From an uncultured Lentisphaerota bacterium (GTDB lineage: Bacteria > Verrucomicrobiota > Lentisphaeria > Victivallales > GWF2-50-93), in assembly GCA_903872565.1 (NCBI GenBank), contig CAIQLG010000102.1:1-40576 (forward strand): a stretch of 40,576 nucleotides of DNA. The letters are read 5' to 3'. Under the pieces are notes generated by a model. The model was given only the letters and a program-made list of their open reading frames with translations. It had not been told where the DNA came from and searched no databases. The position numbers and the translations under genes are program-made. Position 1 is the stretch's first letter. Every line of letters begins with the position of its first letter. Shown piece after piece: positions 8,135-39,820 of the stretch.

Positions 8135-9331
8135 TTAATATCCAATTTTAATTATTCCAGCGGCTTTGTCGGCCGTTTTGACCGCATTTTCGCGGGAGTC
8201 CGAATAAACAAGTATATGGCCTATTCTGTCAGCACCAGAAGTTAGATTTCTGGTCTTGTCTCCCGGTTTAACATATATTTCTATTTCCTCTACACCCTTC
8301 ATTTTTCTGACCTCTTCAACCCTTTCTATTGATTTTACTATTCCTTCTTTACCAGCAATAAATTTAATGGCACTGGCACAGACATTAGATGGATTTATTT
8401 CAGGATTGATCCCGAAAGAAACTGCGATATTCGCATAAAGGACATCAACTCCGGTCACTTTGGGAATTATATGTGTGAAAACCTTGAAGCCAGGTCCCCT
8501 AAGACCTACCTCAACAATCCTTGGTCCATCAGGTGTAATCATTACTTCCATATGAAATGGAGTTGGATTCAATTTTAAGCTTTTCATTATATTGACGGCC
8601 ATTGATTTTGTATCTGAAAGCAGGGGGTCTATATACTTTGACGGAAAAATGACGTCCGTGTCTAAAAGGTATGGGGGAGGGGTGCGGATCTTATCTGAAA
8701 GTGTAACAATATGCACAGCATCCTTCAATACAAACCCTTCAACACTTGACTCCACCCCATGCATAAAAGATTCAATAAGAACCCCACTTTTAGTGTGCCC
8801 TTTTGCACTATCATAGGCTTTGCGAACTTCGCAGTCCGAATTGACAAGCGTAACACCGCGGCTTCCAGAACTATCCATCGGTTTTACAACACATGGAAAC
8901 CCGGCTTTCCCACATTTTTCGCTGCATTCCTCTAAAGAATATGCCGGAGCAAAAAATGGAACAGGAATTCCAGCTACAGAACAAATTTTTCTTAGATTGA
9001 ACTTATTTAGCCCTCTGTCAACCATTTCGTGATTTAGCCCTGGAAGACTTAACTTTTCAACGACTTCTGCAACAGAATGGAGTGCCGCATCACAGCAGAA
9101 AGTCATTACGGCGTCAATTTTCTTCTTTTTCGCAAGTTCAACGACTTTTCCCACCTTTGAAAAGTCTAAAGCTTCGAATTCATTTGTGAATTTGAATCCT
9201 GGTGAGTCTGCATTGCCGTCAATTGCAATCACATGGCACCCGAGTTCTTTGGCGCGTTTTATTCCGGCGGCCTGGGCCGTACCCGCCCCAATCACAAGTA
9301 GTTTTTTGTTTTTTAAGCTCATAATTGTCAT
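8135..9331 (-). CDS. ATP-grasp ligase (carbamoyl-phosphate synthase L-like)
   Basis: This 398-residue protein has an N-terminal Rossmann-like domain (KLLVIGAGTAQAAGIKRAKE, then VIAIDGNADSPGF) and an ATP-grasp domain. The latter shows FPCVVKPMDSSGSRGVTLV (phosphate-binding lysine and flexible loop), the acidic metal site FHMEVMITPDGPRIVEVGLRGPGF, and a C-terminal lid. Such enzymes join a carboxylate to an amine or other nucleophile through an acyl phosphate. Homologues recur in polysaccharide and small peptide clusters, where they attach amino acids. The start could be residue 1 or 4. It lies between pseG and the amidohydrolase, suggesting ligation on or near the sialic-acid-like sugar, which is inference. 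Confidence 0.78.
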   Translation of the reverse strand: MTIMSLKNKKLLVIGAGTAQAAGIKRAKELGCHVIAIDGNADSPGFKFTNEFEALDFSKVGKVVELAKKKKIDAVMTFCCDAALHSVAEVVEKLSLPGLNHEMVDRGLNKFNLRKICSVAGIPVPFFAPAYSLEECSEKCGKAGFPCVVKPMDSSGSRGVTLVNSDCEVRKAYDSAKGHTKSGVLIESFMHGVESSVEGFVLKDAVHIVTLSDKIRTPPPYLLDTDVIFPSKYIDPLLSDTKSMAVNIMKSLKLNPTPFHMEVMITPDGPRIVEVGLRGPGFKVFTHIIPKVTGVDVLYANIAVSFGINPEINPSNVCASAIKFIAGKEGIVKSIERVEEVRKMKGVEEIEIYVKPGDKTRNLTSGADRIGHILVYSDSRENAVKTADKAAGIIKIGY

Positions 9332-9363
9332 TTACCAAACTATTTTAATTCATTTAAATACTG

Positions 9364-10413
9364 TTATCTTTTCAATGCATTCCAATCATCTATCCCAACA
9401 GGTTCAACTGGAAACTCGTATTCTAAAACTTGTCTTTCCAACGACTTAAGTGTTTCTATAATCCGCCCTACACCTTTTCCGTCAACAAGTAGCATTGCAT
9501 TTTCGGACATTTTTTTGCGAAATTCGCAGTCTTTCATCATATTTAACGCTTTTTTAACTCCATTTTCTACAAAATTCGCAAAAATACACCCATCTTGAGT
9601 TTCAATAAATTTCCCAAAAATTGCTTCATCTCCAGTTTGCGGAATAACAATTGTTGGAATACCAAGAAACATTGATTCGATAAGGGTTGTTCCAGCACCA
9701 CAAATTACAAGATCTGCATTTGACATATATGTTTCAATATTTCCGACAGCCTCGATTACTTTAAAGTTATGAGGCAGAGTCCGAGATTTCTCCAAGATTT
9801 GCTTTTTAGAAGTAAAATTCACACCAATAATGGCGGTTACACGCATATTCTGGAACCATTTAGGATTTTCAAGCAGTTTCAGAGTGTTGCCAGCAGGATC
9901 GGCACCACCAAAAGTAATCAGAACATTTTCGATTGTTTCAGATATGTTTTTCTGCAAATTTCGCAATGGAAAGAATTGTTCTCTTATTATTGCGAACTCT
10001 GGACCGCTCAAGAATCTTGTTTTATTGTTTTTCTCTCGCTTGGCAAGCATTCTTTGATGGTCAAAAAGATTTATTATGGTGGTGATATTCTCATCTGCAG
10101 AATCCGAATAATCCAGGGCAGTTATTTGAGCTATTGGGTTCGAATTTCTAAAATTTGCTATGAACCCTGGATCCGGAAAAGGCATATCATAGAGGAGAAA
10201 GTCGGCAACTGGAAAAATCTCTCCGTCAGTTTGAGCTATTTCAAATGGTTTATCCTTAAAAAAATCTTTAAGTTCAGCATTTTCAGCCGTCATAAGTAGA
10301 AATTTGACGACGATTCCTTTTTTCTTCAGGAAATTAGCCACGGCAAGCGATCGAAAAAGATGGCCCATTCCGTACTTCGAGGAACCGTATGCTCTGATAA
10401 ATCCAGTTTTCAT
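9364..10413 (-). CDS. pseG: PseG-type UDP-sugar hydrolase
   Basis: This protein resembles UDP-2,4-diacetamido-2,4,6-trideoxy-beta-L-altropyranose hydrolase, which releases UDP to give the free sugar used by PseI. The 349-residue length is normal. The GYGMGHLFRS-like start (IRAYGSSKYGMGHLFRSLAV) contains the family's catalytic-type histidine at residue 18. The nucleotide-binding half shows NVLITFGGADPAGNT and LVICGAGTTLIESMFLGIP, typical of the MurG-like GT-B fold. No PseH acetyltransferase domain is fused at either end. A small lipoprotein gene separates it from pseI. Confidence 0.83.
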   Translation of the reverse strand: MKTGFIRAYGSSKYGMGHLFRSLAVANFLKKKGIVVKFLLMTAENAELKDFFKDKPFEIAQTDGEIFPVADFLLYDMPFPDPGFIANFRNSNPIAQITALDYSDSADENITTIINLFDHQRMLAKREKNNKTRFLSGPEFAIIREQFFPLRNLQKNISETIENVLITFGGADPAGNTLKLLENPKWFQNMRVTAIIGVNFTSKKQILEKSRTLPHNFKVIEAVGNIETYMSNADLVICGAGTTLIESMFLGIPTIVIPQTGDEAIFGKFIETQDGCIFANFVENGVKKALNMMKDCEFRKKMSENAMLLVDGKGVGRIIETLKSLERQVLEYEFPVEPVGIDDWNALKR

Positions 10414-10431
10414 TATATTAAAATATATTCT

Positions 10432-10459
10432 CTCACATAGACACGGAGGGCACAGAGAA
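10432..10459 (+). repeat. Short dispersed intergenic repeat, copy 1
   Basis: A 28-bp segment containing ACACGGAGGGCACAGAG. It aligns at 22 of 28 positions with the reverse complement of 34070-34097. Both copies are intergenic. Motifs of the form CACGGAG..CACAGAG recur between genes of many environmental bacteria; that recollection is general, not searched. Confidence 0.5.
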
Positions 10460-10466
10460 AAAATTT

Positions 10467-10832
10467 TTATTCAGAAGATTTGTTTTTCCATCGTCTCGAA
10501 TACTTTACAAGCTGTCCTTCACTATTGATTTCAATGTCGACTATACGACCAAGGTTGTGATAGGGATAATCTGCGCAAGCTTGTACCAACCAAATATTAT
10601 TTATTTTTGATATAGGAAATAGAAAACCAGTATCATGTTCCGCTAAGACAAAGCTCCATTCCAGTTTTTCTTCTCTTCCTTTTTCTTCTATAACTTTTTG
10701 AGCCATTAGGCGTATCTTTGGCCATTCTGGATCATCCTTCAGTTCTTTGGTCTGGACAATAGCTGTGGAAGTGGTACAACCTATAACTAGTAAGAAGAAA
10801 CAGACCATAGACATATATGTGATAAATCTCAT
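10467..10832 (-). CDS. Small putative lipoprotein
   Basis: This 121-residue protein starts with a lipoprotein signal: basic MRF, hydrophobic core, and lipobox LVIGC with Cys19 as the acylation site. The mature part (about 100 residues) is not recognised. It contains KIRLMAQKVIEEKGREEKLEWSFVLAEH and ends with a basic tail. It is probably anchored in a membrane. It lies between pseI and pseG with spacers of about 50 and 40 bases, so it may be an insertion into that operon rather than a glycan gene. Confidence 0.65.
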   Translation of the reverse strand: MRFITYMSMVCFFLLVIGCTTSTAIVQTKELKDDPEWPKIRLMAQKVIEEKGREEKLEWSFVLAEHDTGFLFPISKINNIWLVQACADYPYHNLGRIVDIEINSEGQLVKYSRRWKNKSSE

Positions 10833-10873
10833 TTCTCTATATGCCCAACAACTTAATAATGTGCAGATTTATA

Positions 10874-11941
10874 TTATGTCTTCTGAATCAAATTCCAAGT
10901 AAGCGCTGTGCCTTTTTTTGCGTCTTTCGCAATTTTTTTGCCGAGGATTTCTTCATAATGTTTGGGAGGGAGACCGAGGCTGGGACGGATTGATCTAATA
11001 TTTTCCGGAGTGAAGACTTCCCCTTTTTTCATATCTTTGACAACATATAATGAACGGCGGCCTATCAATGATTTCTTTTCATCTCCTGCTGGTCCATAAT
11101 GGACTTTACCAATGGCAAGCCAGGCGCTTTTTGTGTCTTGAACAAGTGTTTTCAGTTCCTGAGGTTCCATTGAGAATGCAGAATCCGGGCCACCATCCGA
11201 ACGTTTCAAGGTGAAATGTTTTTCTATTACCATCGCACCAAGGGCGACTGCGGCAATTGCCACGGCAGTCCCCATAGTATGATCTGAAATTCCTGTTTCA
11301 ACTTTAAATTTTTCCCTCAAATCAGGCAAGGTTTTTAGGTTGGACTGTTCGGGACTTGCCGGATACGATGTAGTGCATTTAAGAAGGATCAAATTCTTGC
11401 AGCCGGCAGAGCACACCGCCTCCACGGCTTCCATGATTTCATTTTCAGTTGCCATACCGGTTGACATTATCACAGGCTTTCCAGTTTTTCCGACTTTTTT
11501 TATCAGGGGAATATCAACGAGTTCTGGTGATGCTATTTTGTATGCAGGAACATCAAGTTTTTCGAGAAAATCCACTGCTGTGAAATCAAAAGGTGAACTG
11601 AAGCATATCAGCCCTCTTTTTCGGCAGTGTTCCATAATCGGCTTATGCCATTCCCAAGGTGTGTAGGCCTCCTGATAAAGCTCATAAAGTGACTTCCCAT
11701 ACCACAAACTGCTCTTGTCACCAATAAAGAATTCATTTTCTCTACAGTCTATGGTTAAAGTATCTGCGGTATATGTTTGAAGTTTAATGGCATTTGCACC
11801 GTTTTTCGCTGCGGCATCAACAATTTGAATGGCCCGATCGAGCGATTGATTGTGATTGCCGGACATTTCCGCAATAATAAAAGGAAGATTACCGAGTCCT
11901 ATTTTGACTCCTCCAATATTTATTTCTCTGTCCCTATTCAT
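10874..11941 (-). CDS. pseI: Pseudaminic acid synthase (NeuB family)
   Basis: This enzyme condenses phosphoenolpyruvate with a 2,4-diacetamido-trideoxy hexose to form a nonulosonic acid. The NeuB TIM barrel is clear: FIIAEMSGNHNQSLDRA, NAIKLQTYTADTLT, FSSPFDFTAVDFLE, KIASPELVDIPLI, KPVIMSTGMAT, LLKCTTSYPA, and GISDHTMGTAVAIAAVALGA followed by EKHFTL. The C-terminal 70 residues form the SAF (antifreeze-like) domain. The 355-residue length is normal. Its start overlaps the stop of the DUF190 gene by 4 bases, so they are translationally coupled. PseI versus LegI or NeuB is decided by the accompanying pseB, pseC and pseG. Confidence 0.9.
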   Translation of the reverse strand: MNRDREINIGGVKIGLGNLPFIIAEMSGNHNQSLDRAIQIVDAAAKNGANAIKLQTYTADTLTIDCRENEFFIGDKSSLWYGKSLYELYQEAYTPWEWHKPIMEHCRKRGLICFSSPFDFTAVDFLEKLDVPAYKIASPELVDIPLIKKVGKTGKPVIMSTGMATENEIMEAVEAVCSAGCKNLILLKCTTSYPASPEQSNLKTLPDLREKFKVETGISDHTMGTAVAIAAVALGAMVIEKHFTLKRSDGGPDSAFSMEPQELKTLVQDTKSAWLAIGKVHYGPAGDEKKSLIGRRSLYVVKDMKKGEVFTPENIRSIRPSLGLPPKHYEEILGKKIAKDAKKGTALTWNLIQKT

Positions 11942-12303
11942 TTTTCAACTTTTCCGTGTGTATATTTAAGGACTTTAACTTTTTCTATTGTCACGAGGCC
12001 ACCACAACCTGATTTTTCTAACATCTCATTTATTTTAGGTATAAAAGCTTCAATTTTTTCCTTTTTATCGGCAATTTCTACAATTATTGGCAAATCTGAT
12101 GACAAATCAAGAATTTTGTTTGTCCGGATATGGCTTGATGCTCCAAACGCAAGAATTCCCCTGAAAACTGTAGCACCTGCAAGTCCAGATTTTTTTGCTT
12201 CTCGGACTATTGCTTCAAACATTGAAAGATGTCCACATTTGTCATCTTCGCCTAAGAAAATGCGAAGGAGTTCAGCATCTGAATTGGTTTCCATAAGTTT
12301 CAC
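11938..12303 (-). CDS. DUF190 (PII-like) protein, CrcB partner
   Basis: This 121-residue protein has the DUF190 pattern: LLRIFLGEDDKCGHLSMFEAIVREAKKSGLAGATVFRGILAFG, then IRTNKILDLSSDLPIIVEIADKKEKIEAF. The family has a PII-like ferredoxin fold and is commonly found beside fluoride channel genes, where a regulatory role is presumed. It overlaps crcB by 4 bases at its start and pseI by 4 bases at its end, so three genes are tightly coupled. Confidence 0.85.
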   Translation of the reverse strand: MKLMETNSDAELLRIFLGEDDKCGHLSMFEAIVREAKKSGLAGATVFRGILAFGASSHIRTNKILDLSSDLPIIVEIADKKEKIEAFIPKINEMLEKSGCGGLVTIEKVKVLKYTHGKVEK

Positions 12304-12689: not shown

Positions 12690-12698
12690 TTTAAGATA

Positions 12699-14941: not shown

Positions 14942-14964
14942 AAATACCTCATGATAAAATTCAT

Positions 14965-17392: not shown

Positions 17393-19393
17393 TTATATTG
17401 CATTTATGCTCTCATCGCCTGCAATGTTGCGGATTTTAATTCTGATGGGTTTTTGGGGAGAGAAGATTTTTCCATCCCAGAATTCTTTTGTTTTTTTGCC
17501 ATTTTTGATGACATAGCCCTTCCTGTCAATCTTGATTTCTGTGTTGCTGTGCCAAACACCATCTTTGTTTTTACAGTCTATGCTAATAAATTCTATTAAT
17601 TCCAAGCCTGTTTCACTTATCTGAATGGGAGTAAAATTACTATCTTTTCCATTAACAGCTACATCATCGTTATCTTCTTCATCGTCACCATTCTCATTGT
17701 CTGAATCACTTCCTTTATCGGGATCTGCCTCTTTTTTAGGAAGAAGAGATTTTCCGATTTTCTGAAGTTCTTTTTTCTTATTGTATTCTTCAATTTTCTG
17801 AATAAGGCGGTCGCTGGTGAATGATTTAAATCGAACAACATATTCTTTACCTTCCTTTTTCATCTCGAAATCTGCAACATCATTGATCACAACATCATCA
17901 AGAACCTCCTTCAGGTCTCGAAGTTCTATTTCAAGATCCGTCGGATTATTCTCCCGGATGAAGGCGTCGAGCTCTTTTTCATCTTCAATGTCAACATAAT
18001 GGACAATTACTTTTTTGACGCTGTCCGGTAGTTCCGGCATGGCTATATTAATAATCCTGTTCATAAGAGGAATATCAAGAATTTTTGTACTGTGATCGAG
18101 AAGATTTGGGATATAACAGGGCATCATCCCTAATTTGCTGTCATGTATTGCACCCACCCAAAAGCTGTCGAGGCTGTCCTCGTTTTTCAGTCCGGTTATG
18201 AGAGTTTTCAGCTTATCCATCGTCTGGGCGGGGTTACGGAAGAGCGAAACCCCGTCCTGAACATCGTAAATATCAAATGGGGCTCCGGCGGCGATAAGCC
18301 TGTCGCGGGCGGTCTGGATACTATTTATTCCCACATCAACGTGAATAAATTTCCGCTTCAAGTCATTTGCGACTTTCGCAGTTACCCCGCTGCCACCAAA
18401 AAAGTCAGCGACAAGCATGCCTTCATCCGAGGATGCCTTTATAATACGATCAATTAACTTCTGAGGTTTTCCTGTCGCATAGCCAATTTCTTTTATTTCT
18501 GAAGCATTTATTCCAATATTCCAGACATCATATTCACCAACACCTGCCTTTTTGAATGTTTTAACTCTTTCCCCACGAGGATTGATATTCCAATAGTACC
18601 AATTTCCCCTATTTTCATCCCATTGATCAAATCTTGCTTCCTGTTCCTTTGTATATGGAATCGCAACTTCATCAAAATTGAAAGTCCATTTTTCAATATC
18701 TTTTGTGTACCAAAAAATGTTATCATGTTTTCTGTTAAATTGTGGGAAGGGATCGCTTCCGCTTGGATACCACCAAACTATCTCATTTCTGAAATTATCC
18801 TCGCCAAACACCTCATCCATGAGGATTTTGACATAGTGGCCGATGTGCCAGTCGAGATGGACGTAGATGCTTGCAGAGTCGTTCATGACGCTTTTTATGG
18901 CGGTGAGATTCTCGAACATCCAATTGAGATAGTCCTCCTTGTTCCAGATGTCGCCGTACATTTTTTCCTCGAAGGCGCGGAGTTCATCAAAGTCTATGCC
19001 ACCGTTCTGATCGCCGTTGCCATTTGTATTATATTCCTCTTCCATTTCAGCGATTTTCCTGGCGATTTCCGGACACCTGCGCAGATTAACTTTCTTGGCA
19101 TAGTCCGCACCACTTGCAAACGGGGGATCAATATAGACGAGGTCAACTTTAACCCCTTTGTCCTTCAGATATGCGCAGGCGGATATGCATTCACCACGGA
19201 TCAGCATATTTTTAGAATTTTCCCCTACAGTTTCTATCTTTTCAAGTTCATAGAAAGGCATTCCACGCCTAATCCGGTCATGGACTCTGTCGTTGTCACG
19301 GTAACTAAGGGCGCGCCTTGTTCTGGTAAAATTATTCAGGATTGCCTGACCTTCGACCGTGCTAGGATAATATGGGATATATTTAACAGGCAT
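17393..19393 (-). CDS. mod: Type III-like DNA methyltransferase (Mod, beta class)
   Basis: This 666-residue protein methylates DNA, most likely adenine. Motif IV DLVYIDPPFASGADY (DPPF at 89-92) comes before motif I VADFFGGSGVTAKVA (331-336), the order of beta-class N6-adenine or N4-cytosine enzymes. Residues 150-320 between them would hold the target recognition region (WWYPSGSDPFPQFNRKHDN and GNWYYWNINPRGE). About 300 residues follow, including the acidic stretch DPDKGSDSDNENGDDEEDND and a basic end. It starts 9 bases after the res stop, so res and mod are one operon. The order res then mod is the reverse of the classical Type III layout. Confidence 0.9.
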   Translation of the reverse strand: MPVKYIPYYPSTVEGQAILNNFTRTRRALSYRDNDRVHDRIRRGMPFYELEKIETVGENSKNMLIRGECISACAYLKDKGVKVDLVYIDPPFASGADYAKKVNLRRCPEIARKIAEMEEEYNTNGNGDQNGGIDFDELRAFEEKMYGDIWNKEDYLNWMFENLTAIKSVMNDSASIYVHLDWHIGHYVKILMDEVFGEDNFRNEIVWWYPSGSDPFPQFNRKHDNIFWYTKDIEKWTFNFDEVAIPYTKEQEARFDQWDENRGNWYYWNINPRGERVKTFKKAGVGEYDVWNIGINASEIKEIGYATGKPQKLIDRIIKASSDEGMLVADFFGGSGVTAKVANDLKRKFIHVDVGINSIQTARDRLIAAGAPFDIYDVQDGVSLFRNPAQTMDKLKTLITGLKNEDSLDSFWVGAIHDSKLGMMPCYIPNLLDHSTKILDIPLMNRIINIAMPELPDSVKKVIVHYVDIEDEKELDAFIRENNPTDLEIELRDLKEVLDDVVINDVADFEMKKEGKEYVVRFKSFTSDRLIQKIEEYNKKKELQKIGKSLLPKKEADPDKGSDSDNENGDDEEDNDDVAVNGKDSNFTPIQISETGLELIEFISIDCKNKDGVWHSNTEIKIDRKGYVIKNGKKTKEFWDGKIFSPQKPIRIKIRNIAGDESINAI

Positions 19394-19402
19394 AACCTCT
19401 CC

Positions 19403-22276
19403 CTAAAAGAATTTTTTTATTGTTTTACTCAAAATCATTATATTATCATCCATGCTCTTATCATCTGACAGATATAGATAATCGAATTTATTGTATCCAA
19501 ATTTCTCATTGTTCATGCTGATGAATTCAGATTCTACGAAGTTACGTCTTAGTAGAAATCTTTTCTCTTCGGCATAGCCGGAGCCTTTTGTTTCAATAAT
19601 CAGAATTTTATGTATTTCTCCATCTTTCCGTTTAATCAAGAGGAAATCCGGCGTATATTTACCAACCCATTTCCAGCATGTCCGATTCCTGGCATAACAA
19701 TCAATCTGAAAATTTGATAAAAATCTGTCACCGTTGTAATACAACTCAAGGTTTCTACCAATCAGATCGTCAATTTTCAATGCCTCCTTAAGAAAATTAA
19801 GCTCGAATGCGCTTTGGGGAAAATTGTATGGAAGATAATGAAATGATCTGTCCTTATCATAGACCGGCAAAGACAACTTTGGTGTGGGCACCATTGAGGC
19901 AATTAAAGGATTTGCTCTTTTTAGTTGTTCAAAATCCTCAAGAAGTTTTTGCAGGGCTTTATCAGGAGATTCTCCTGTCTTGTCGAGTTCTAGTATCTGT
20001 GTACAGGCACCTTCATCCGGGAAAAGGCTTTCGCTTTTTAGGATTGGCTTAAGGTTTTTCACCAATAGCATTTTGGCACTATTGGGAATTATTTCACTTT
20101 CAGTCTTCAGTTCTCTTCTGCTACGGAATGCAAGTCTTATAAGTTTTCTGACTTCGTCCTGCTTGATAGCTTCGTTAAAGAAAATACAACCATCTTTTGG
20201 ACAAGTTATATTTTTAAATATTTTGAGTAATTTATCCTTATAAAGTGACAAGTCTCTTAAAGCTACTGAACCTAAACTTTCCTTTGAAACCTGGAGAACC
20301 CATTGGTTGAAGTCGGCTTTTTTGCCTACAAGCTCATAAATAAGCGTTCTGGTTTCTTTTATATGTTCCAGATTCCTGTGCTCTACAAAAGAGCCTTTTG
20401 ACAAACGATCTTCTTGTCCCAGGATTGAATCAAGTTTGTTTTCAGTGTCTGGTGATGCGTCAATAATAGTTTCATTATATCTTACTTTAAGCTGATAAAA
20501 TTTTACTTCTGGCAATTTAAGATATTCGAGCCTTGAAACCTGTTGGACTGTATCCAAACACTTATTCTTTGACAGCTCGTTGATTTCTTCGATGCTTGTG
20601 TGCTGTTCATCCTTCAATTGCTTGTTGAGTTTTTCGGCGTTGAATTCGTTGAGCCATATCACGGCAGACTCATCCTGCCCTTTGTCAACCTGCCTGAGAC
20701 AGCGGCAGGATGTCTGGAGAACCATGTTCGAGGGACTGTCTCCTTTTTGCGACAATATAACACCCGTCAGACTGCGGCAATCCCATCCTTCCTTGCCTAT
20801 TTGAACAAGCAAAATGAGTTTCCTGTTTTTCCCTGCATTTGTCTCAGGAATGTCGAGAGAAAGGAATTCGAGCTCGTTTTCTTTAGGCAGTTTATGTTTT
20901 TTATTGCCTCTGTGAAACTTCAATATATGCTCCGGATTGATATTCATTTCTCCAATTAGAAACGGGTAGATTTCCTCCTCGAGCCGTTCAATTGATCCGC
21001 AGTAGATGGCGAGTTTGGCACTGCATCCGTTGAAGTAAGTCTTCAGCCCATATTTCGAATAGAAATCCTCGACCCCTTTTTTGATTATCCCTATTGGTTC
21101 AAATCCATGTGCAACTTCGACTTTGGGTTTTTTGAGAAAATTCTGGATTGCAGTGGCAAGAGGATAATAATAGACCGTATTTGTAATTTGTGGCAATTTC
21201 AAGATCACTTTGTCTGCAATTGCAACTTTTTCAGCAGGTGAAAGATAGGGAGTTCCAGAATAACCACAAACCCCTGTAATAGTTCCTCCGGCATTCCACA
21301 TGTTCACAACTTGCCGGAGCTTTATTTCATCTTTCGCCGCATGGTGAACCTCGTCAATATGAATGGCAAGATTTGGAATTTTCCCAATTAGATTGCGCAA
21401 TTCGTTGGCAAAATGATCCTTCTCGTCATCCGATTTTTCAATTAATTCACCAGATTTATCCAAGTCAAGTCTGTCAAGGATGACTTTTTCAGCATTTACT
21501 ATCATGACAAGTCCCCTCAGAGTGTCGAATGGCTGAAAATGGGCGATTTTTTGTGAGTTTGGATTCCTTGCCTTGTTGCTTTTCTTTGCGCTCTTTGGCT
21601 TGTCAAGAATTTCAAATTTCAATATTTTTCTTATATTTGAAGCCGATGGCTCTGGAAGGATCCATGAAGGATCAAAGTTTTGGATTGTTTTCAAGCTCGG
21701 AACAATGGATGATTTCAAACCGGAGGGAATGAGAATTATGAAATTATGGGCGAAAACTTTGTTTTCAGGTTCATTAATTGCAAAATAAAGATCAAGATAA
21801 ATGAATACAGCCATCAAAAATGTTTTCCCGGCACCCATTGGAAGGCTAAAAAGATAGTCAGGATAGTCTATTGAATAGAATAATTTTCTTATTGTTTCAG
21901 GAAAATTTATTTCATCGGCATTTGCAATGATGAATTTTTCAAGGTCTGGGAAAACTGGTTTGCTGTCACCGTTTTTTATCTTGGAAAATTCATAAAAAGC
22001 CCGTGCAGAATTATCTTTTTCAAAAATATTTCTTACCTTCTGGCTTATATGCAGGTCTGACAAATCCTCCCTGCAATTGAAAAGTTCCTGAAAAAACAAA
22101 TTTCTAAGTGGTTTGTTTTCGCATTTCAGCTTTAAAAACAAATATGTTTCAATGGCTTCGATCTGCGTTTCCCTCAGAGAAGCTTTGTCCCTAATGTACT
22201 TAATGATTGAATTAACAGGGCAGCCAGGGGAATTCAACCACCTGTTTTTTGAAACTTTAATTTGCTCGTAAATCAT
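19403..22276 (-). CDS. res: Type III-like restriction subunit: DEAD/DEAH helicase with nuclease end
   Basis: This 957-residue superfamily 2 ATPase has Walker A GAGKT at 148-152 (SLPMGAGKTFLMAVF) and DEVHH at 308-312. The helicase C part includes VQIGKEGWDCRSLTGVILSQ and MVLQTSCRCLRQV (motifs V and VI). The C-terminus has a PD-(D/E)xK-like nuclease core, PDFLLIKRKDGEIHKILI then IETKG (about 876-898). Together with mod it would cut DNA lacking the methyl mark, after ATP-driven translocation or sliding. The N-terminal 120 residues are unrecognised. A 57-base AT-rich spacer separates it from the upstream gene. Confidence 0.88.
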   Translation of the reverse strand: MIYEQIKVSKNRWLNSPGCPVNSIIKYIRDKASLRETQIEAIETYLFLKLKCENKPLRNLFFQELFNCREDLSDLHISQKVRNIFEKDNSARAFYEFSKIKNGDSKPVFPDLEKFIIANADEINFPETIRKLFYSIDYPDYLFSLPMGAGKTFLMAVFIYLDLYFAINEPENKVFAHNFIILIPSGLKSSIVPSLKTIQNFDPSWILPEPSASNIRKILKFEILDKPKSAKKSNKARNPNSQKIAHFQPFDTLRGLVMIVNAEKVILDRLDLDKSGELIEKSDDEKDHFANELRNLIGKIPNLAIHIDEVHHAAKDEIKLRQVVNMWNAGGTITGVCGYSGTPYLSPAEKVAIADKVILKLPQITNTVYYYPLATAIQNFLKKPKVEVAHGFEPIGIIKKGVEDFYSKYGLKTYFNGCSAKLAIYCGSIERLEEEIYPFLIGEMNINPEHILKFHRGNKKHKLPKENELEFLSLDIPETNAGKNRKLILLVQIGKEGWDCRSLTGVILSQKGDSPSNMVLQTSCRCLRQVDKGQDESAVIWLNEFNAEKLNKQLKDEQHTSIEEINELSKNKCLDTVQQVSRLEYLKLPEVKFYQLKVRYNETIIDASPDTENKLDSILGQEDRLSKGSFVEHRNLEHIKETRTLIYELVGKKADFNQWVLQVSKESLGSVALRDLSLYKDKLLKIFKNITCPKDGCIFFNEAIKQDEVRKLIRLAFRSRRELKTESEIIPNSAKMLLVKNLKPILKSESLFPDEGACTQILELDKTGESPDKALQKLLEDFEQLKRANPLIASMVPTPKLSLPVYDKDRSFHYLPYNFPQSAFELNFLKEALKIDDLIGRNLELYYNGDRFLSNFQIDCYARNRTCWKWVGKYTPDFLLIKRKDGEIHKILIIETKGSGYAEEKRFLLRRNFVESEFISMNNEKFGYNKFDYLYLSDDKSMDDNIMILSKTIKKFF

Positions 22277-22883: not shown

Positions 22884-24002
22884 TTAATCTCCTTCTATTA
22901 GTTTTACTGTCAAATTTTGTTGTTCTTCTGTCAATCCTGGGAACATTGGAATGGAAAGAATTTCCTTGAAAGCTTCTTCGGCGACCGGGCATAATCCGGG
23001 CGAAGTTTGAAGATTTTTCTGATAGTAGGGATGTAGATGAACTGGGATATAATGAACATTGACGCCAATACCGGCATTTCTGAGCTTTTTAAACATTTCA
23101 TCACGACCGATGTTCTGCGAAATTCGCAGGACATAAAGATGATAGGCATGGGTAAGTTCAGAAGAAACTCCAAGCGGTTTTATGTCAGGATTGCCTTTAA
23201 ATGCTCCGTCATACCGTTCGGCAATTTCCCGTCGTTTTGAAATCCAGCCCGTCAGTTTCTTAAGTTGACTTATTCCGAGTGCGCATTGGAAATCGGTGAT
23301 TCTGTAATTATAACCAAGTTCTGCCATTTCATAGAACCAGGAGCCTTTTTCTTCTCTTTGACGGTAGTCGGTAGTAATTCCGTGATTGCGAAACACACGC
23401 ATTTTTTCGGCGAATTTCGCATTGTCTGTAACAATCATTCCACCTTCTCCGGTGGTGATATGTTTGACCGGATGAAAACTGAAACAGGTCATATCGGCAA
23501 GAGTTCCGACTCTGCGCCCCTTGTATTTTCCACCGATTGAATGACAAGCATCGGAAATTAGAATAATTCCGTATTTTTTTGCGATTTTCGCAAGCTTGTC
23601 ATAGTCGCAGGGCTGTCCTGCATAATCAACTGCAATTATTGCTTTTGTTTTTTTTGTGATTTTCTTTTCAACTTCTGCCGGATCAAGGAGAAGTGTTTCC
23701 GGCAGGACATCTGCAAAAAGAGGGATTCCACCGCAGTAGAGGATGCAGTTGGCACTGGCAACAAAGGTCATTGGAGTGACAATGACTTCATCTCCGGTGC
23801 CGATTCCGGCGGCGTTTGCGGCACAATGAAGAGCGGCAGTTCCATTTGAAACTGCGACTGCGAATTTCGCACCTGTAAAATTGCAGATGGCTTTTTCAAA
23901 TTCAGCTACTTTTGGTCCGGTGGTGATGAAATCCGATCTCAAAGCTTCGATGACGGAATTCACATCATCCTGCTCAATTATCTGTTTCCCGTAGGGTATC
24001 AT
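22884..24002 (-). CDS. pseC: PseC-type PLP aminotransferase (DegT/DnrJ/EryC1)
   Basis: This enzyme transfers an amino group to C4 of the UDP-4-keto-6-deoxy sugar made by PseB. The 372-residue protein shows the family pattern: FAVAVSNGTAALHCA (cofactor phosphate site), TPMTFVASANCILYCGG, the cofactor aspartate in LISDACHSIGG (D151), and the PLP lysine K180 in FSFHPVKHITTGEGG. The tail HYIPVHLHPYYQ is typical of PseC-like enzymes. It starts next to the ketosynthase stop (TAAATG), so both are co-translated. Confidence 0.88.
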   Translation of the reverse strand: MIPYGKQIIEQDDVNSVIEALRSDFITTGPKVAEFEKAICNFTGAKFAVAVSNGTAALHCAANAAGIGTGDEVIVTPMTFVASANCILYCGGIPLFADVLPETLLLDPAEVEKKITKKTKAIIAVDYAGQPCDYDKLAKIAKKYGIILISDACHSIGGKYKGRRVGTLADMTCFSFHPVKHITTGEGGMIVTDNAKFAEKMRVFRNHGITTDYRQREEKGSWFYEMAELGYNYRITDFQCALGISQLKKLTGWISKRREIAERYDGAFKGNPDIKPLGVSSELTHAYHLYVLRISQNIGRDEMFKKLRNAGIGVNVHYIPVHLHPYYQKNLQTSPGLCPVAEEAFKEILSIPMFPGLTEEQQNLTVKLIEGD

Positions 24003-27076: not shown

Positions 27077-28257
27077 TGAACGCCATTTTCTCAATGGAAC
27101 TCTGGTTTTATCTTGTAGGGCGGGTTTCCAATGCGCTTCTTCCTATCCTTCTTGTGCTTCTTTATTTTGCCTGGAGATCCCGCAGGTCATTTGCCAGAAG
27201 CGGTGCTGTCCGTCTTTTTCTCATATTTTCAGCGCTTGATATTCTAGTCCGTTTTTTTCTGTTTTTTGGAGGGGTACCCTATCAGGGCAGATATTTCCAT
27301 GTCCTCATCATCATCTGTTGTATTCTCGGTGCGGCAGGTTTTCTCCCATTTGTAGAATATGTTTCACGCTTAGGAAAAAAATTCAAATGGCTGAACTACA
27401 AGAAGGTTCTCGCCGGAACTGTCATTCTTGTTCTTGCCGTGCATGTGGGCAAGGCGTTGAGCCCGCCCGATAGAAAATGCTGGCTCGATGAGATTCCGGC
27501 ACTGATCAGAAAAAACTGCCCCGAGGGAAAAAAGCCAATTCTCATATCGGAGGACGACGACGTCAGGATCGGATATTATGGCGGAGCCGAATACTTGAAA
27601 TTTTCACGGCCCGATGCGGTTAATTTTTTTATGGAAGAGCCATTTACAGTGGCTGGAAAAGAAAGTCGGATGGAAAACCTTCTTTCGCTTTCGGACGGCA
27701 AGAAAGATCCTAAAATCGAATTCGAGGGTACGGCAGAATTAAGGGTTGACCTTAAAAAAACCTATATTTACAGCCGCGGAACAATAGTATTTTGTGGGGA
27801 AGGGCTGGACAGGCTGGAAATCCTTCTTCCAGAAAATAAGAAAAACAATGCCAAGTGGCTGAAACTTGAGAAGAACTTGGACGGCACTTATTCGGCAAAC
27901 TATCTTGGCTTTCCTTCAAAATCTTTCAAAATACTTGTCCGTGCGCCTGAAGGAACACACTGGAAACTCGGTGAAATTTCACTTGTACTTGGAAACAAAT
28001 GGGAATTCCTGCGCCTTGGCAGGGAAAACACGACAGGATTCAAATTCCCTGTGCTTCCCGGCAGAAACATCAGCGAGATAGATAAATCCATATCTGAACT
28101 TGGCGGAGACAATGTTTTTGTTCTTGTCAGGGTAAACGACGAGAAATTCAGAGCGCTTTTCAAAAATGCATGTTGTAATTTTCCGTTCAAATTCATCGCG
28201 GAAAAAAAAGACCGCCGAAAGGGATTTTATACTCTTTACCAGGGAAGATCCAGATGA
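27073..28257 (+). CDS. GT39-type membrane glycosyltransferase, C-terminal part
   Basis: This 394-residue protein has about four membrane segments in the first 140 residues (LVGRVSNALLPILLVLLYFAW, LFLIFSALDILVRFFLFFGG, IICCILGAAGFLPF, VLAGTVILVLAVHVG). GVPYQGRYFHVLIII resembles the conserved Y(Q)xRY region late in GT39 membrane domains. The remaining 250 residues form a soluble periplasmic domain rich in beta strands. It begins at GTG 27073 or ATG 27076, sharing bases with the stop of the upstream ORF. The most economical reading is one gene of about 690 residues with a single frameshift; two coupled genes cannot be ruled out. Confidence 0.68.
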   Translation: MMNAIFSMELWFYLVGRVSNALLPILLVLLYFAWRSRRSFARSGAVRLFLIFSALDILVRFFLFFGGVPYQGRYFHVLIIICCILGAAGFLPFVEYVSRLGKKFKWLNYKKVLAGTVILVLAVHVGKALSPPDRKCWLDEIPALIRKNCPEGKKPILISEDDDVRIGYYGGAEYLKFSRPDAVNFFMEEPFTVAGKESRMENLLSLSDGKKDPKIEFEGTAELRVDLKKTYIYSRGTIVFCGEGLDRLEILLPENKKNNAKWLKLEKNLDGTYSANYLGFPSKSFKILVRAPEGTHWKLGEISLVLGNKWEFLRLGRENTTGFKFPVLPGRNISEIDKSISELGGDNVFVLVRVNDEKFRALFKNACCNFPFKFIAEKKDRRKGFYTLYQGRSR

Positions 28258-29267
28258 AAGTCCTTTTCCTTTTAAAATCACTGAAGACACCAAGTTCGAG
28301 GATCAGGATTCTCGATATCATGCCGGAGCTTGAAAAGCTAGGCATAAGATGTGACTACGAGACTTTTCCCCGCAATATTATTAAGAGATATGTTTTATTC
28401 CGGAAATGTGAAAAATACGATGCCGTGGTTTTCCAGAAGAAACTCCTTAATTCAATCGAATTTGCAATTCTCAGAAAACACAGCAGATTTCTCGTTTTCG
28501 ACTATGATGATGCGATATATTATAAGAATGCATCCCCATCGCAGGATATGAAGGACTATCTAAGTTCGTCAAGTGAAAGAAGATTCAGGAGAATCATAGA
28601 AAAATGTGATCTTGTTGTTGCGGCTAACCGGGTGCTTGCATCAAAGGCAGGGGAAACAACCCCTGATTCAAAAATCCGCATAATTCCTTCGCCAGTGAAG
28701 ATGGATGAAATTCTTTCCAGAAGCGACACGGAAATAAGGGGGATTCCAGTGATAGGCTGGATCGGGATGAAAGGAAATCTCACCTTCATTGAATATATTT
28801 CGGATGCTTTGCGCGAACTTCGCAAAAAGCAGGATTTTGTATTGAAGATCATTTCCGACAATTCCATCGAAATTCCCGGGATAAAAATAGAATTTGTGAA
28901 ATGGAGTCTAGACGCGCAAAATCGCGAAATTCGCAGTTTTGACATTGGAATAATGCCACTTTCGGCTGATCCTTATTCGGAGGGCAAGGCTGCATACAAA
29001 CTGATCCAATATCTTGCTGCGGGTGTACCTTCTGTCTGCTCGCCTGTCGGAATGAACCTGGATTTCTGCCGGAACGACGAATATGCTATTTCAGCTGAAA
29101 AATCGGAAGATTTTGCGGAAAAGATCCTTCTCCTTGTGAAAAACTGCAAAATTCGCGCTATATTAAGCGAGAGTGGAAAAAAACTGGTGCGTGAAAGATT
29201 TGACATTGGTGTTGTGGCAAAGTCCTATGCGGAAGCTTTAAAGGATAATTTGCCACAAAAAGGCTGA
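28254..29267 (+). CDS. GT4-type glycosyltransferase
   Basis: This 337-residue GT-B glycosyltransferase has a short N-terminal domain starting MKVLFLLKSLKTPSSRIRIL and a donor-binding half starting at PVIGWIGMKGNLTFIEYI. The GT4 signature is in IGIMPLSADPYSEGKAAYKL followed by IQYLAAGVPSVCSPVG, with the E-x7-E-like positions partly kept. It overlaps the GT39-type gene by 4 bases, so both are made together and probably build the same glycan. The sugar transferred is unknown. Confidence 0.8.
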   Translation: MKVLFLLKSLKTPSSRIRILDIMPELEKLGIRCDYETFPRNIIKRYVLFRKCEKYDAVVFQKKLLNSIEFAILRKHSRFLVFDYDDAIYYKNASPSQDMKDYLSSSSERRFRRIIEKCDLVVAANRVLASKAGETTPDSKIRIIPSPVKMDEILSRSDTEIRGIPVIGWIGMKGNLTFIEYISDALRELRKKQDFVLKIISDNSIEIPGIKIEFVKWSLDAQNREIRSFDIGIMPLSADPYSEGKAAYKLIQYLAAGVPSVCSPVGMNLDFCRNDEYAISAEKSEDFAEKILLLVKNCKIRAILSESGKKLVRERFDIGVVAKSYAEALKDNLPQKG

Positions 29268-32077: not shown

Positions 32078-32082
32078 TTGAC

Positions 32083-34043: not shown

Positions 34044-34069
34044 AATTTTCCAAACCAGCTATTTTAAAA

Positions 34070-34097
34070 CTCTCTGTGTACTCCGTGCCTCAGTGAG
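34070..34097 (-). repeat. Short dispersed intergenic repeat, copy 2
   Basis: On the minus strand this 28-bp segment contains CACGGAGTACACAGAGAG and matches 10432-10459 at 22 of 28 positions. It sits between the hsdS remnant and the DUF2293 gene. Confidence 0.5.
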
Positions 34098-34105
34098 ATA
34101 AATTA

Positions 34106-34264: not shown

Positions 34265-34283
34265 CTAAAATTCTTTCTATTTG

Positions 34284-35033: not shown

Positions 35034-35041
35034 AACATTTA

Positions 35042-35371: not shown

Positions 35372-35382
35372 AATATCCTGCC

Positions 35383-36456
35383 TTATTTCTTTGATATTCC
35401 GGCCTTTTCCCAGGTTGCCATTTCATTCATCAGAAGAACCGCCGATTCGACGAAATGCATCGCCAGGACTGCGCCAGTTCCCTCGCCGAGACGCAAATTC
35501 AGAGACAGAAACGGTTTCTTCTTCAGTTTTTCCAGTGCGGCGTGGTGTCCGCGTTCCATGCTCTGATGCGAAGCTATCATATAATCCGTGGAATGGGGGC
35601 AAATCTCATTTGCGAGAAGCGCGCCAGCCGTGGAGATGAAACCATCCACCAGGACAGGTTTTCTCATTGATGCGGCACCAAGTATGAACCCCGCGATTGC
35701 GCCAATCTCGAATCCGCCAACCTTTGAGAGAATATCAATCGGATCATCCGGATTGGGCGAGTTCAATGCAATAGCCTTCGATATTATCTCGGCTTTTTTC
35801 AGGCGTCCTTCCTCGTCAATTCCGGCTCCGCGGCATGTCACGGCTTCGGGATTCATCCTGCAGATTACAGAAACAATGGCACTGCTCGAAGTTGTGTTTC
35901 CAATCCCCATGTCACCGGTGGCTAAGATGTCATTTTTCTTAGCCGATTTCAGCGCGATTTCAATCCCGGCTTCGATGCTGCGTATTGCCTCGTCCCGTGT
36001 CATCGCCGGTTCTTTCACCATATTTTTTGTTCCGTTTGCGATATGCTTGTCAATAACAAGACCTTTCTTGACGAACTCGGACACATCGCCTGCGACACCC
36101 ATGTCAACCACGAGGATCTTTGCTTTTGCCTGTCTGGCGAGAACATTGATTCCGGCACCTGCGAGTTCCGCAAAATTCCTTATCATAAGGAGTGTTACAG
36201 CCTGAGGATAAGGGCTCACTCCTTCCGTAGCCACGCCATGATCGCCTGCCATTATGACAACTGTCCTGCGTTTAATCGGGGGATTTAGGGAGCGGGTAAT
36301 TCCGGCAATGTCAACAGCCAGATCAAGCAGTCTCCCGAGAGCCCAGGGGGGCATTGTGAGATCAATAATTCTTTCCTTTGCTTTTTCACGCCATTCCAAG
36401 TCGGCAGGGCTGATCTGTCCGATTGTCTTTCTAATCAAATCACTCATTTCAGTCAC
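35383..36456 (-). CDS. cobT: Nicotinate-nucleotide:dimethylbenzimidazole phosphoribosyltransferase
   Basis: This enzyme makes alpha-ribazole phosphate, the lower ligand of cobalamin. The 357-residue protein carries MAGDHGVATEGVSPYPQAVT, ATGDMGIGNTTSSSAIVSVI, CRGAGIDEEG and the C-terminal LNLRLGEGTGAVLAM with the catalytic glutamate. Length and motifs are standard. With cobS it suggests late-stage or salvage cobalamin synthesis; the corrin ring genes are not in this window, nor is cobU. Confidence 0.95.
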   Translation of the reverse strand: MTEMSDLIRKTIGQISPADLEWREKAKERIIDLTMPPWALGRLLDLAVDIAGITRSLNPPIKRRTVVIMAGDHGVATEGVSPYPQAVTLLMIRNFAELAGAGINVLARQAKAKILVVDMGVAGDVSEFVKKGLVIDKHIANGTKNMVKEPAMTRDEAIRSIEAGIEIALKSAKKNDILATGDMGIGNTTSSSAIVSVICRMNPEAVTCRGAGIDEEGRLKKAEIISKAIALNSPNPDDPIDILSKVGGFEIGAIAGFILGAASMRKPVLVDGFISTAGALLANEICPHSTDYMIASHQSMERGHHAALEKLKKKPFLSLNLRLGEGTGAVLAMHFVESAVLLMNEMATWEKAGISKK

Positions 36457-36510
36457 CTTTTTTATAGTTATCTTAATGCTAAATACCGGATTTTCAAAAA
36501 CGAATATTTA

Positions 36511-37962
36511 CTACACCTTGAGCCCTTCGTTCCGTTTGGAGGATGTTTTTAAGATTGCATCATATTTTTTCAGGACGGGTTTGACTTCTATTTTCAGGAA
36601 TTCTTCAACCTGTTCCGGGGCGCGGCCAACATAATTTTCCGGGCTCATCATCTTGTCGAGGGTCTTTGCAATTTTCACAAAGAGGACATCTTTTTTGATC
36701 CTTTCAAGCAGGTCGTTTGGTTTTCCGTATTCCTTGACCATTCTTCCCGCCTCGAGGGAGTGTTTTCTGATCGCCTCGTGCAGTTCCTGTCTATCGCCTC
36801 CCGCCTTCACGGCCGCCATCATTATATTTTCACTTGCCATGAAGGGAAGTTCGGCCATGATGTGGCTTCCCGCAACTTTCGGCCAGAGTTTCATCCCGCC
36901 TGCGACATTCGCAACAAGTTTCAGAATCGCATTCACGCCAAGAAACGCCTCTGGAAGTACGATTCTGCGGTTCGCCGAGTCGTCGAGTGTTCTCTCGAAC
37001 CACTGCGTCGAGTGCGTCTGGGCGGCATTGTCCGTGAGCGACATCACATATCTTGCGAGCGAGCAGATTCTTTCGCTCCTCATCGGGTTTCTCTTGTACG
37101 GCATGGCGCTGGAACCAACCTGTGCCGACTCGAAAGGTTCGTCAAGCTCTTTCAGATTCGATAGCAACCGGACATCTCCGGCAAACTTATATGCGGACTG
37201 CGCAATTCCGGAAAGGACGGCGACTGCATAGAAATCTATTTTCCTCGTGTATGTCTGCCCACTGACGGGTATGATTTTCTCGAAACCCATTTCTGTGGCA
37301 ACCATTTTTTCGAGTTTTCTGACTTTTTCGTGATTGCCGTCGAAAAGTTCAAGGAAGCTCGCCTGTGTCCCAGTTGTCCCCTTCACGCTTCTGAATGGCA
37401 GATTTTCGAGTTGGAACTCGAGATTATTCAAATCAATGAGGAAATCCTGCAGGTAGAGGCAGAATCGTTTTCCAAAAGTTGTAAGTTGCGCGGGCTGGTA
37501 ATGGGTGAACGCGAGTGCCGGCATAGCCTTGTATTTCTCTGCGGCATCTGCGAATTTCGCAATCACACCGAGAATCTGGCCACGGACATACTGGAACGAT
37601 TCCCTTATCTGGATGAGCTCGGTGTTGTCCGTTACGAAACAGCTTGTCGCTCCGAGATGGATGATAGGTTTCGCCTTCGGGCATTGTTCCCCAAAAATGT
37701 GGATATGGCTCATCACGTCGTGGCGCAATTCCTTCTCCTTCGCCTCTGCGGCATTGAAGTCAATGTCTTCAAGATGCGCCGCCATCTCCTTCAGTTGTGC
37801 ATCGGTGATTTTTAATCCCAGGGTTTTTTCACATTTTGCAAGTGCGAGCCAGAGCTTCCGCCAGGTCGAATGTTTTTTTTGTGCGGACCATATACGGCTC
37901 ATTTCGGCATCAGAATAGCGGCTGATCAGGGGGTTTTCATATTTTTCACAGCTCTGTTCCAT
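36511..37962 (-). CDS. purB: Adenylosuccinate lyase
   Basis: This enzyme releases fumarate in two steps of purine synthesis. The 483-residue protein is typical: HIHIFGEQCPKAKPIIHLGATS with a helix-domain histidine, TGTQASFLELF, and the fumarase/lyase signature GSSAMPYKRNPMRSE at about 283-297, with the catalytic serine loop. It does not overlap its neighbours. Its C-terminal part resembles the eukaryote-like longer PurB type. It is followed by cobT after 54 bases on the same strand. One exact TGCGAATTTCGCA lies inside it (37549-37561). Confidence 0.95.
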   Translation of the reverse strand: MEQSCEKYENPLISRYSDAEMSRIWSAQKKHSTWRKLWLALAKCEKTLGLKITDAQLKEMAAHLEDIDFNAAEAKEKELRHDVMSHIHIFGEQCPKAKPIIHLGATSCFVTDNTELIQIRESFQYVRGQILGVIAKFADAAEKYKAMPALAFTHYQPAQLTTFGKRFCLYLQDFLIDLNNLEFQLENLPFRSVKGTTGTQASFLELFDGNHEKVRKLEKMVATEMGFEKIIPVSGQTYTRKIDFYAVAVLSGIAQSAYKFAGDVRLLSNLKELDEPFESAQVGSSAMPYKRNPMRSERICSLARYVMSLTDNAAQTHSTQWFERTLDDSANRRIVLPEAFLGVNAILKLVANVAGGMKLWPKVAGSHIMAELPFMASENIMMAAVKAGGDRQELHEAIRKHSLEAGRMVKEYGKPNDLLERIKKDVLFVKIAKTLDKMMSPENYVGRAPEQVEEFLKIEVKPVLKKYDAILKTSSKRNEGLKV

Positions 37963-38053
37963 AAATTTTTCCTCAACTTTAATTTTTAAAACATTTGAAT
38001 TTAGCCATAAGTCAGTTTAGTGTCTTAACCTTTATTTGAAAACAACAAATTAA

Positions 38054-38434
38054 ATGATTTTAAGCAACAAAAACAAAAATAGCTTTTACGGAGTGATAAT
38101 CAAGGTTAAAAATCTTGATGTCTGCCGTTCTTTCTACCGAGACATACTCGGGCTTGGCGCGCCAATTATAGACAGCAGCTTCTGGATCGAGTTCAAAGTG
38201 CAGGAGGATGTTGCGCTCGTCCTAGAACCTGTCATCGAGGGTGAAACAATCCCCGAAAAAGATGGCAGAACTTCATGGCTCTACAAGGTTGAAGATCTTG
38301 ATGGAATGATCCGCCGCCTCGAGGAACACGGCTATGAGCCTGTGAGAGGCGAGCAGGAACGACTTGGATACAGGGTATATGTATTCAATGATCCGGAAGG
38401 AAACCACATATACCTTTTCTCTGGCAAAGAATAG
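38054..38434 (+). CDS. VOC-superfamily (glyoxalase-like) protein
   Basis: This 126-residue protein has the betaalphabetabetabeta vicinal-oxygen-chelate pattern: GVIIKVKNLDVCRSFYRDIL with VEDLDGMIRRLEEHGYE, and the ending VYVFNDPEGNHIYLFSG. A metal-ligand glutamate is not certain. Such proteins act as glyoxalases, dioxygenases or binding proteins, and no substrate is evident. It lies 7 bases before hisH and may be co-transcribed with hisH-hisA. Confidence 0.8.
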   Translation: MILSNKNKNSFYGVIIKVKNLDVCRSFYRDILGLGAPIIDSSFWIEFKVQEDVALVLEPVIEGETIPEKDGRTSWLYKVEDLDGMIRRLEEHGYEPVRGEQERLGYRVYVFNDPEGNHIYLFSGKE

Positions 38435-38441
38435 TTCCGTT

Positions 38442-39065
38442 ATGATCGCAATTATTGACTATGAAATGGGAAATCTTCTGAGTGTGAAAAAAGCACTCGA
38501 ATTTGTCGGCGCATTTCCGGAAATTACTTCGTCCCCGGTAAAAATCCACAAGGCCGATGCAATAGTTCTGCCAGGCGTTGGAAACTTCGGAGATGGCATC
38601 AAGCATTTGAAAAAAAAACGTCTTGATGTCGCTATAAAGAATTTCATCTCTTCGGGAAAACCTTTTCTGGGGATTTGTCTTGGGATGCAACTTCTTATGG
38701 AGGCAAGCGAGGAGGCGCCAGACTCGAAAGGGCTCGGTATCTTCAAGGGAGGCGTTGTCCGATTCCACGATTCCGGGCTCAAGGTGCCGCACATGGGCTG
38801 GAACCAGCTGAAAATAGAGAATTACAATCCCTGTCTGGCCGAAGTCCCGGACATGAGTTATTTCTATTTTGTCCACTCTTATTTTGTCAGGCCGGACGAT
38901 CCTAGAATCATCGCAGGAAGCTGTAGTTACGGAGTTGACTTTGCCGCCGCCATTGGAAAAGGAAACATTTTTGCTACACAGTTCCATCCGGAAAAAAGCC
39001 AGGATCTCGGCCTCCGGATTCTACGCAATTTCACAAAAATTGTCCACTACAAGAATAGCATCTGA
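38442..39065 (+). CDS. hisH: Imidazole glycerol phosphate synthase, glutaminase subunit
   Basis: HisH supplies ammonia to HisF in histidine synthesis. The 207-residue glutamine amidotransferase has the nucleophile C79 in PFLGICLGMQLLME and the catalytic His-x-Glu in TQFHPEKSQDLG. The start at 38442 begins MIAIIDYEMGNL, the normal HisH N-terminus; a longer frame upstream overlaps the VOC gene. The partner hisF is not in this window. Confidence 0.95.
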   Translation: MIAIIDYEMGNLLSVKKALEFVGAFPEITSSPVKIHKADAIVLPGVGNFGDGIKHLKKKRLDVAIKNFISSGKPFLGICLGMQLLMEASEEAPDSKGLGIFKGGVVRFHDSGLKVPHMGWNQLKIENYNPCLAEVPDMSYFYFVHSYFVRPDDPRIIAGSCSYGVDFAAAIGKGNIFATQFHPEKSQDLGLRILRNFTKIVHYKNSI

Positions 39066-39079
39066 AAGGTCTTGCATAA

Positions 39080-39820
39080 TTGAAGAAGACAAAAATAACC
39101 CTGATTCCGGCAATTGATATTCTTGGTGGCAAATGCGTCCGGCTCGAACAAGGCGATTATTCGCGTGAAACCGTTTATTCTGATGATCCGGTCTCGCAGG
39201 CGCTCAAATGGCGCGACGAAGGAGCGGAAATCATTCACATCGTGGATCTTGACGGAGCGAAAAAAGGTTTGCCTGTGAACATTGGCATAATCGAAAAGAT
39301 GATTAAAGCAGTTGGAATCCCCTGTGAAATAGGCGGCGGGATAAGGACTTGCGAAACTGCCACGAAATTCGCGGAAATTGGTGCCGCAAGGGTGATATTT
39401 GGCACTGCCGCAATACAGGATCCGGACATAATTCAAAAATTTCTCCAAGGGCATCCTGAAAAGACAGTTCTTGGAATTGATGCCAAAAATGGAATGGTCG
39501 CGGTGAAAGGCTGGCTCGAACTACATTCTGTCACCGTAAAAGAACTTTCCGCGAAATTCGCAGAAATGGGAGTTATAAGATTCATCTACACTGACATTGC
39601 GACCGATGGAATGCTTGCTGGTCCGAACTACAAGGAAATTTCCAATTTCTGCGACAATGTCCCAACAGCTGCAGTGATCGCTTCCGGTGGGATTTCCTCT
39701 GTGGAAAACATAATGGAGCTTGCCAGGCTCGGGAAACCCAATCTTGAGGGCGCAATCGTTGGAAAAGCTCTGTATTCTGGCAAAATCAGTCTAAAAGAGG
39801 CGATAGAGAAACTACGCTAG
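39080..39820 (+). CDS. hisA: ProFAR isomerase (phosphoribosylformimino-AICAR-ribotide isomerase)
   Basis: This TIM-barrel enzyme performs the Amadori rearrangement in histidine synthesis. The acid and base residues are visible: D13 in LIPAIDILGGKCVRL and the aspartate in YTDIATDGMLAGPN. Phosphate-binding loops are in EIGGGIRTCE and VIASGGISSVENI. The only start in frame near the N-terminus is TTG at 39080, with an in-frame TAA just before it and GAAAGG 10 bases upstream. It follows hisH after 14 bases. Confidence 0.95.
   Translation: MKKTKITLIPAIDILGGKCVRLEQGDYSRETVYSDDPVSQALKWRDEGAEIIHIVDLDGAKKGLPVNIGIIEKMIKAVGIPCEIGGGIRTCETATKFAEIGAARVIFGTAAIQDPDIIQKFLQGHPEKTVLGIDAKNGMVAVKGWLELHSVTVKELSAKFAEMGVIRFIYTDIATDGMLAGPNYKEISNFCDNVPTAAVIASGGISSVENIMELARLGKPNLEGAIVGKALYSGKISLKEAIEKLR

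Follow-up and report, generated by a model that had tools for sequence, protein, structure and literature searches.

Palindromic words that recur across entire genomes are known mainly from cyanobacteria, and to our knowledge their purpose is still unsettled after decades. The matS site of enterobacteria, bound by MatP, is a palindrome with a 5-3-5 layout. Cyanobacterial HIP1 (GCGATCGC) and the alternate HIPs that replace it in particular lineages are highly iterated and lie mostly within genes, and Elhai reported a matching methyltransferase for each HIP or alternate-HIP genome (PMC4390886). The DNA uptake sequences of Neisseriaceae (DUS) and Pasteurellaceae (USS) occur in hundreds of copies, within genes and under reading-frame constraints, in dialects that share a core, and a steep mismatch profile has been reported for uptake sequences (PMC1939737). 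Here we describe an iterated word in Lentisphaeria that has features in common with each of these systems.

Results

The window, by which we mean the whole 40,576-nucleotide stretch that was analysed, carries nine GCGAANTTCGC cores where ~0.1 would be expected, a count reached in 0 of 100 dinucleotide shuffles. The original prediction had placed 13-mers at 8821, 9516, 23116, 23859 and 37549, additional 11-bp cores at 23410, 28813, 28924 and 39551, and one-mismatch variants at 6390, 8423, 9953, 13209, 18368, 23580 and 36901, and every one of these coordinates is exact. Full 13-mers are found in an ATP-grasp gene (8135-9331, minus strand; TGCGAACTTCGCA at 8821..8833, CEVR frame), a glycosyltransferase-like gene (9364-10413, minus strand; TGCGAAATTCGCA at 9516..9528, CEFR frame), an aminotransferase gene (22884-24002, minus strand; TGCGAAATTCGCA at 23116..23128, LRISQ frame, and TGCGAATTTCGCA at 23859..23871, AKFA frame) and a purB-like gene (36511-37962, minus strand; TGCGAATTTCGCA at 37549..37561). 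The aminotransferase gene additionally holds the core GGCGAATTTCGCA (23409..23421, AKFA frame) and the site TGCGATTTTCGCA (23580..23592, AKIA frame), the ATP-grasp gene the site TGCGATATTCGCA (8423..8435, ANIA), and the purB-like gene the site TGCGACATTCGCA (36901..36913). On the plus strand, the gene at 28254-29267 has two cores with C/A ends, CGCGAACTTCGCA (28812..28824) and CGCGAAATTCGCA (28923..28935), and a hisA-like gene (39080-39820) has the core CGCGAAATTCGCA at 39550..39562 in the AKFA frame. Two further minus-strand genes carry TGCGAGATTCGCA at 6390..6402 in ANLA codons (gene 5910-6536) and the relaxed site TGCGAGTTCCGCA at 36160..36172 (gene 35383-36456).

A restriction/toxin block had been described as free of cores. 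Strict cores are indeed absent from 9.6-23.1 kb, but relaxed sites are present there, namely the TGCG-N5-CGCA site TGCGTCTTTCGCA at 10919..10931 (gene 10874-11941, minus strand) and TGCGACTTTCGCA at 18368..18380, inside an N6_N4 methylase gene (17393-19393, minus strand). The methylase gene (666 aa) adjoins one whose 957-aa product matches no Pfam family (17393-22276 together), and the two are likely a restriction-modification pair. The G+C content of the window is 41.4%, compared with 46-50% in most sampled stretches of the host genome.

The excess extends to the whole genome. The host draft (6.56 Mb) has 525 copies of GCGAANTTCGC against 3 of the reversed pattern, and the claim of an excess over chance was understated; the word TGCGANNNTCGCA (TGCGA-N3-TCGCA / TGCG-N5-CGCA) has 596 copies against 4 of its control, an excess of the HIP class. 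Relaxed sites occur in 20 of 20 sampled stretches of the host genome; they are mildly clustered, and regular spacing along the genome was not seen. Beyond 17 bp, the sites share no flanking similarity.

The motif is a gapped palindrome of rigid spacing, TGCG-N5-CGCA, with TGCGA-N3-TCGCA as its best form and 8 bp from half-site to half-site. In a de novo search, the best form was among the top gapped palindromes in samples of the host's own genome (407 kb), of G230 from the same family (322 kb) and of G219 from another family of the same order (205 kb). The three samples contain 53, 42 and 98 N3 copies, respectively, against 0.3-0.5 expected (~100-fold), and the other spacings between N0 and N8 gave 0-1 copies and no comparable excess. 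The four-base TGCG core is sharp. In the centre there is a graded preference for AAWTT whose degree depends on the lineage, A is preferred at position 2 from the centre, and the flanks favour Y before and R after the site. Perfect sites are 10- to 63-fold above the spacing control, sites with one mismatch 1.3- to 2.2-fold and sites with two ~1-fold, the main tolerated variant being a change of the outer T to C. The dyad symmetry is perfect, and the word thus lacks the asymmetry of the known DUS and USS. On the coding strand of the host's genes, C..A ends (13) outnumber U..G ends (6), that is, pairing-preserving variants are not favoured, and an RNA hairpin is for this reason disfavoured.

To follow the word among relatives, we used whole-genome pattern counts, with de novo statistics on samples of 0.1-0.9 Mb per lineage; most of the genomes compared are drafts, and kinship labels such as f1 and g4 denote program-assigned groups. 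In the host's family, all eight genomes examined contain TGCGANNNTCGCA, in 509-1041 copies against 1-12 of the control. The densest site count belongs to G219 of family f7, with 1184 copies, and its relative G386 has 231; other carriers are genus g56 (124-235) and G390 (209). The whole record of Lentisphaera marina has 1155 TGCGN5CGCA sites against 22 of the control, and the first 457 kb of its contig 1 contain ~100 of them, which matches the genome mean. Because the site coordinates coincide, G212 is the L. marina genome. Density across carriers ranges over ~90-730 sites per Mb and varies about tenfold between relatives. In families f2, f3, f5 and f10, large sister families among them, TGCGANNNTCGCA is near background. 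Two genomes use dialects, CGCGA-N3-TCGCG in G214 (47 against 0.7 expected) and TTGCG-N5-CGCAA in G318 (18 against 0.12 expected), and the samples of G011 and G037 gave no such word.

Several neighbouring observations were made in these genomes. Three Oligosphaera relatives (G083, G264 and G403; f10, g47) have 81, 56 and 120 copies of the reversed control ACGCTNNNAGCGT against 3-4 of the forward pattern, which suggests that they carry a different iterated gapped palindrome in the same 5-3-5 layout. The G219 sample (L130-L149) holds further gapped palindromes, e.g., CCCACC-N2 (13 copies) and TACCGC-N2 (20 copies), which are probably short interspersed repeats. In G239, G162 and G388 there are dispersed repeats of ~160 bp (L114:6255-6435; ~80% identical, dozens of copies) and of ~70 bp (L114:9762-9840; ~95% identical). 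By PurB identity to the window, the closest relatives with a name are a sulfidic-cave MAG labelled Victivallis vadensis (DYRX01000120.1, L030), at only 72%, and L. marina, at 64%, which places the host in Lentisphaeria. The MAG and G132 are one genome, assigned to the host's family, and the species label of the MAG looks wrong.

Several results bear on the level at which the word is maintained. With genes called by a simple codon-usage caller, 72 of 76 sites in the own genome are intragenic (~62 expected), leaving four outside genes where ~13.5 would be expected. All three codon phases are used, as originally claimed, with GCG-NNN-NNC-GCA (AxxA) favoured. When codons were shuffled with proteins and codon usage kept, three samples of genes gave means of 1.1 (maximum 4), 0.8 and 0.8 sites, against 53, 40 and 83 observed. 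The genome-wide count and the synonymous-codon shuffle had both been named as possible refutations, and the motif survives the two. The peptides A[KN]FA (27 against 3.5) and CE[FILV]R (15 against 1.3) exceed composition several-fold, and proteins are therefore bent to fit the DNA word. Of four genus-g4 orthologues of the purB-like gene, three have GCGANNNTCGC at the codon aligned with site 36901. Site 37549 has a same-codon counterpart in four genus-g4 orthologues, and a further three sequences of the family, two of which come from one genome, have a site at a distance of three codons from it. Most orthologues of this gene in the family have sites, at five alternative codon positions, and the residues change to match.

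Conservation was measured between G230 and G239, which belong to one genus and have a mean identity of 80%, over 48.6 kb of alignment with 20 sites. Fourfold positions are identical in 40 of 47 cases within site cores and in 2537 of 4727 outside (85% versus 54%; p = 1e-5), and GCG/GCA alanine codons are kept in 26 of 28 cases within sites and in 184 of 404 outside (p = 5e-7), while amino-acid identity is equal inside and outside sites. Since synonymous positions are kept within sites between congeneric species, the constraint is on DNA, whether as purifying selection or as a continuing drive, and the claim that DNA rather than protein is constrained is upheld by these positions and by the shuffles alike.

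The word is also found on viral DNA. An exact 15-mer scan of IMG/VR gave three matches (one 36,940-bp contig). This contig, with genes for terminase, major head, tape-measure, DnaB and O-like proteins, has nine TGCGN5CGCA sites and no control sites (0.24 sites per kb), and a 10,068-bp contig encoding portal, head protease, major head and tape-measure proteins has 13 sites and one control site (1.3 sites per kb). Both are tailed-phage contigs, and they probably belong to phages of motif-carrying hosts, an assignment made from the motif only.

Discussion

There are multiple possible explanations for a word of this kind. That it merely reflects the usage of codons or amino acids, or is a dispersed repeat, has a negligible probability: the favoured AxxA phase is what usage bias might leave, but all phases are used, the codon shuffles rule out codon or protein bias and the dissimilar flanks a repeat, and both the conservation of synonymous positions and a reversed-pattern control near zero count against it. 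The sites could also be operators of a transcription factor or of a very large regulon, and the graded, dimer-like logo does resemble a regulator site. However, hundreds to more than 1000 copies run along genes and, in the own genome, are under-represented between them, a location that rules out promoter operators and makes the regulon explanation very improbable. A methylation-based explanation of the HIP1 type, in which an orphan DNA methyltransferase would act on the word and methylation-coupled repair would make or keep it, draws on the HIP1-like phenomenology (highly iterated, palindromic and intragenic, with other words in relatives). Against it, G219 and L. marina both lack PF00145, PF01555 and PF02086, G162 lacks PF00145 and PF01555, and G390 lacks PF02086, PF02384 and PF07669 and has partial matches only to PF00145 and PF01555. 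The model predicts a methylase shared by all carriers, and each of the five methylase families searched is missing from at least one motif-rich genome. With drafts 72-96% complete and methylases of other families in existence, this may tell against a simple HIP1-type model, which we regard as unlikely. A Dam-like PF02086 gene (G000:C34:36973-37770) has orthologues in G132, G162, G230, G239 and G388 (six of eight family members); as the cognate methylase it is ruled out by its absence from the f7 and f11 carriers.

Accumulation through biased uptake during natural transformation is another scenario. The density, the reading-frame preferences and the fixed-core lineage dialects resemble Neisseriaceae uptake sequences (PMC3630211), the mismatch profile is steep as it is for uptake sequences, and ComEC is encoded in nearly all motif-rich genomes. 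ComEC is nevertheless equally common in motif-poor relatives, being near-universal in the genomes compared, and is absent in G214 and G413, so that it does not track the motif. Moreover, two symmetric arms imply that duplex DNA is bound by a dimer, and uptake does not obviously predict phages in which sites are as dense as in the bacterial carriers or denser. We consider it rather doubtful that the word is an uptake sequence. The original likening of the motif to HIP1 and uptake words holds for an iterated intragenic palindrome under DNA constraint, but a simple reading as a methylation site finds no support in the five methylase families.

As a tentative preference, held at less than even confidence, we suggest from the sequences that a putative dimeric protein uses the word throughout the genome as a docking site or as a mark of self. 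Two arms, rigid spacing, a graded centre and strand symmetry point to the site of such a protein, and the graded preferences at the centre and in the flanks resemble those of a dimeric DNA-binding protein more than the sharp site of an enzyme. A sequence-specific dimer would recognise TGCGA-N3-TCGCA, its specificity would drift slowly between lineages, and any DNA residing in the cell would have to offer it a site every 1-12 kb. The likeliest purpose would be nucleoid organisation or the marking of DNA as own, and selection would accordingly favour phages that bear the site. Copies in phages speak for a role, for instance in organisation or self-marking, that all DNA residing in the cell requires, although repair acting across the whole host could alternatively have brought the word into phages. 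Against the docking site, uptake- or repair-driven accumulation could also yield conserved sites, and a roughly tenfold variation in density between relatives would be surprising if the site were architectural and essential.

A more specific version, that the dimeric protein reads the lineage-specific two-arm word as self and that phages acquired the word of their host in order to pass, is improbable in our estimation. Self-marking of this kind would rest on sequence instead of methylation, and would have dialects. The presence of the word in cultured Lentisphaera marina IMCC 11369 makes both the binder and the modification state directly testable. In addition, the word distorts protein sequence, which matters for interpreting AKFA-type peptides in carrier genomes, and could serve to assign viral contigs to hosts.

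Finally, we compare the Lentisphaeria word with the systems described above; none of the papers in the collection searched contains the motif strings. matS is a 13-bp site for a DNA-binding protein and is repeated on the chromosome (PMC3330122), and the present word has the same length and is likewise repeated, but matS has 23 sites confined to the Ter domain, whereas the present word has hundreds to more than 1000 genome-wide, and a Ter-restricted arrangement is ruled out by the 20 host stretches and by the mean density on L. marina contig 1. It shares with DUS and USS the copy number, the intragenic location, the frame constraints and the dialects, but these are not palindromes, and ComEC does not follow the motif. 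With HIP1 it shares high iteration, palindromic form, a location mostly in genes and lineage-specific replacements, and it differs in being a gapped two-arm word with a graded centre, in its occurrence in phages, in lacking a consistent methylase among the five families and in its lower density, as HIP words generally number 1000-2000 per Mb (PMC4390886). The word joins the HIP1-like and uptake-like words (PMC4390886, PMC3630211, PMC1939737), and is set apart from them by its bipartite form, its phylum, its presence in phages and the apparent lack of a methylase common to the carriers. Its rigid pair of arms, its spread through the family, its dialects and its copies in phages go beyond what the window alone shows. 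Lentisphaeria thus offer a counterpart of the cyanobacterial words in another phylum, with a clearly protein-like two-arm site, a measurable constraint at the DNA level, lineage dialects and copies in phages.
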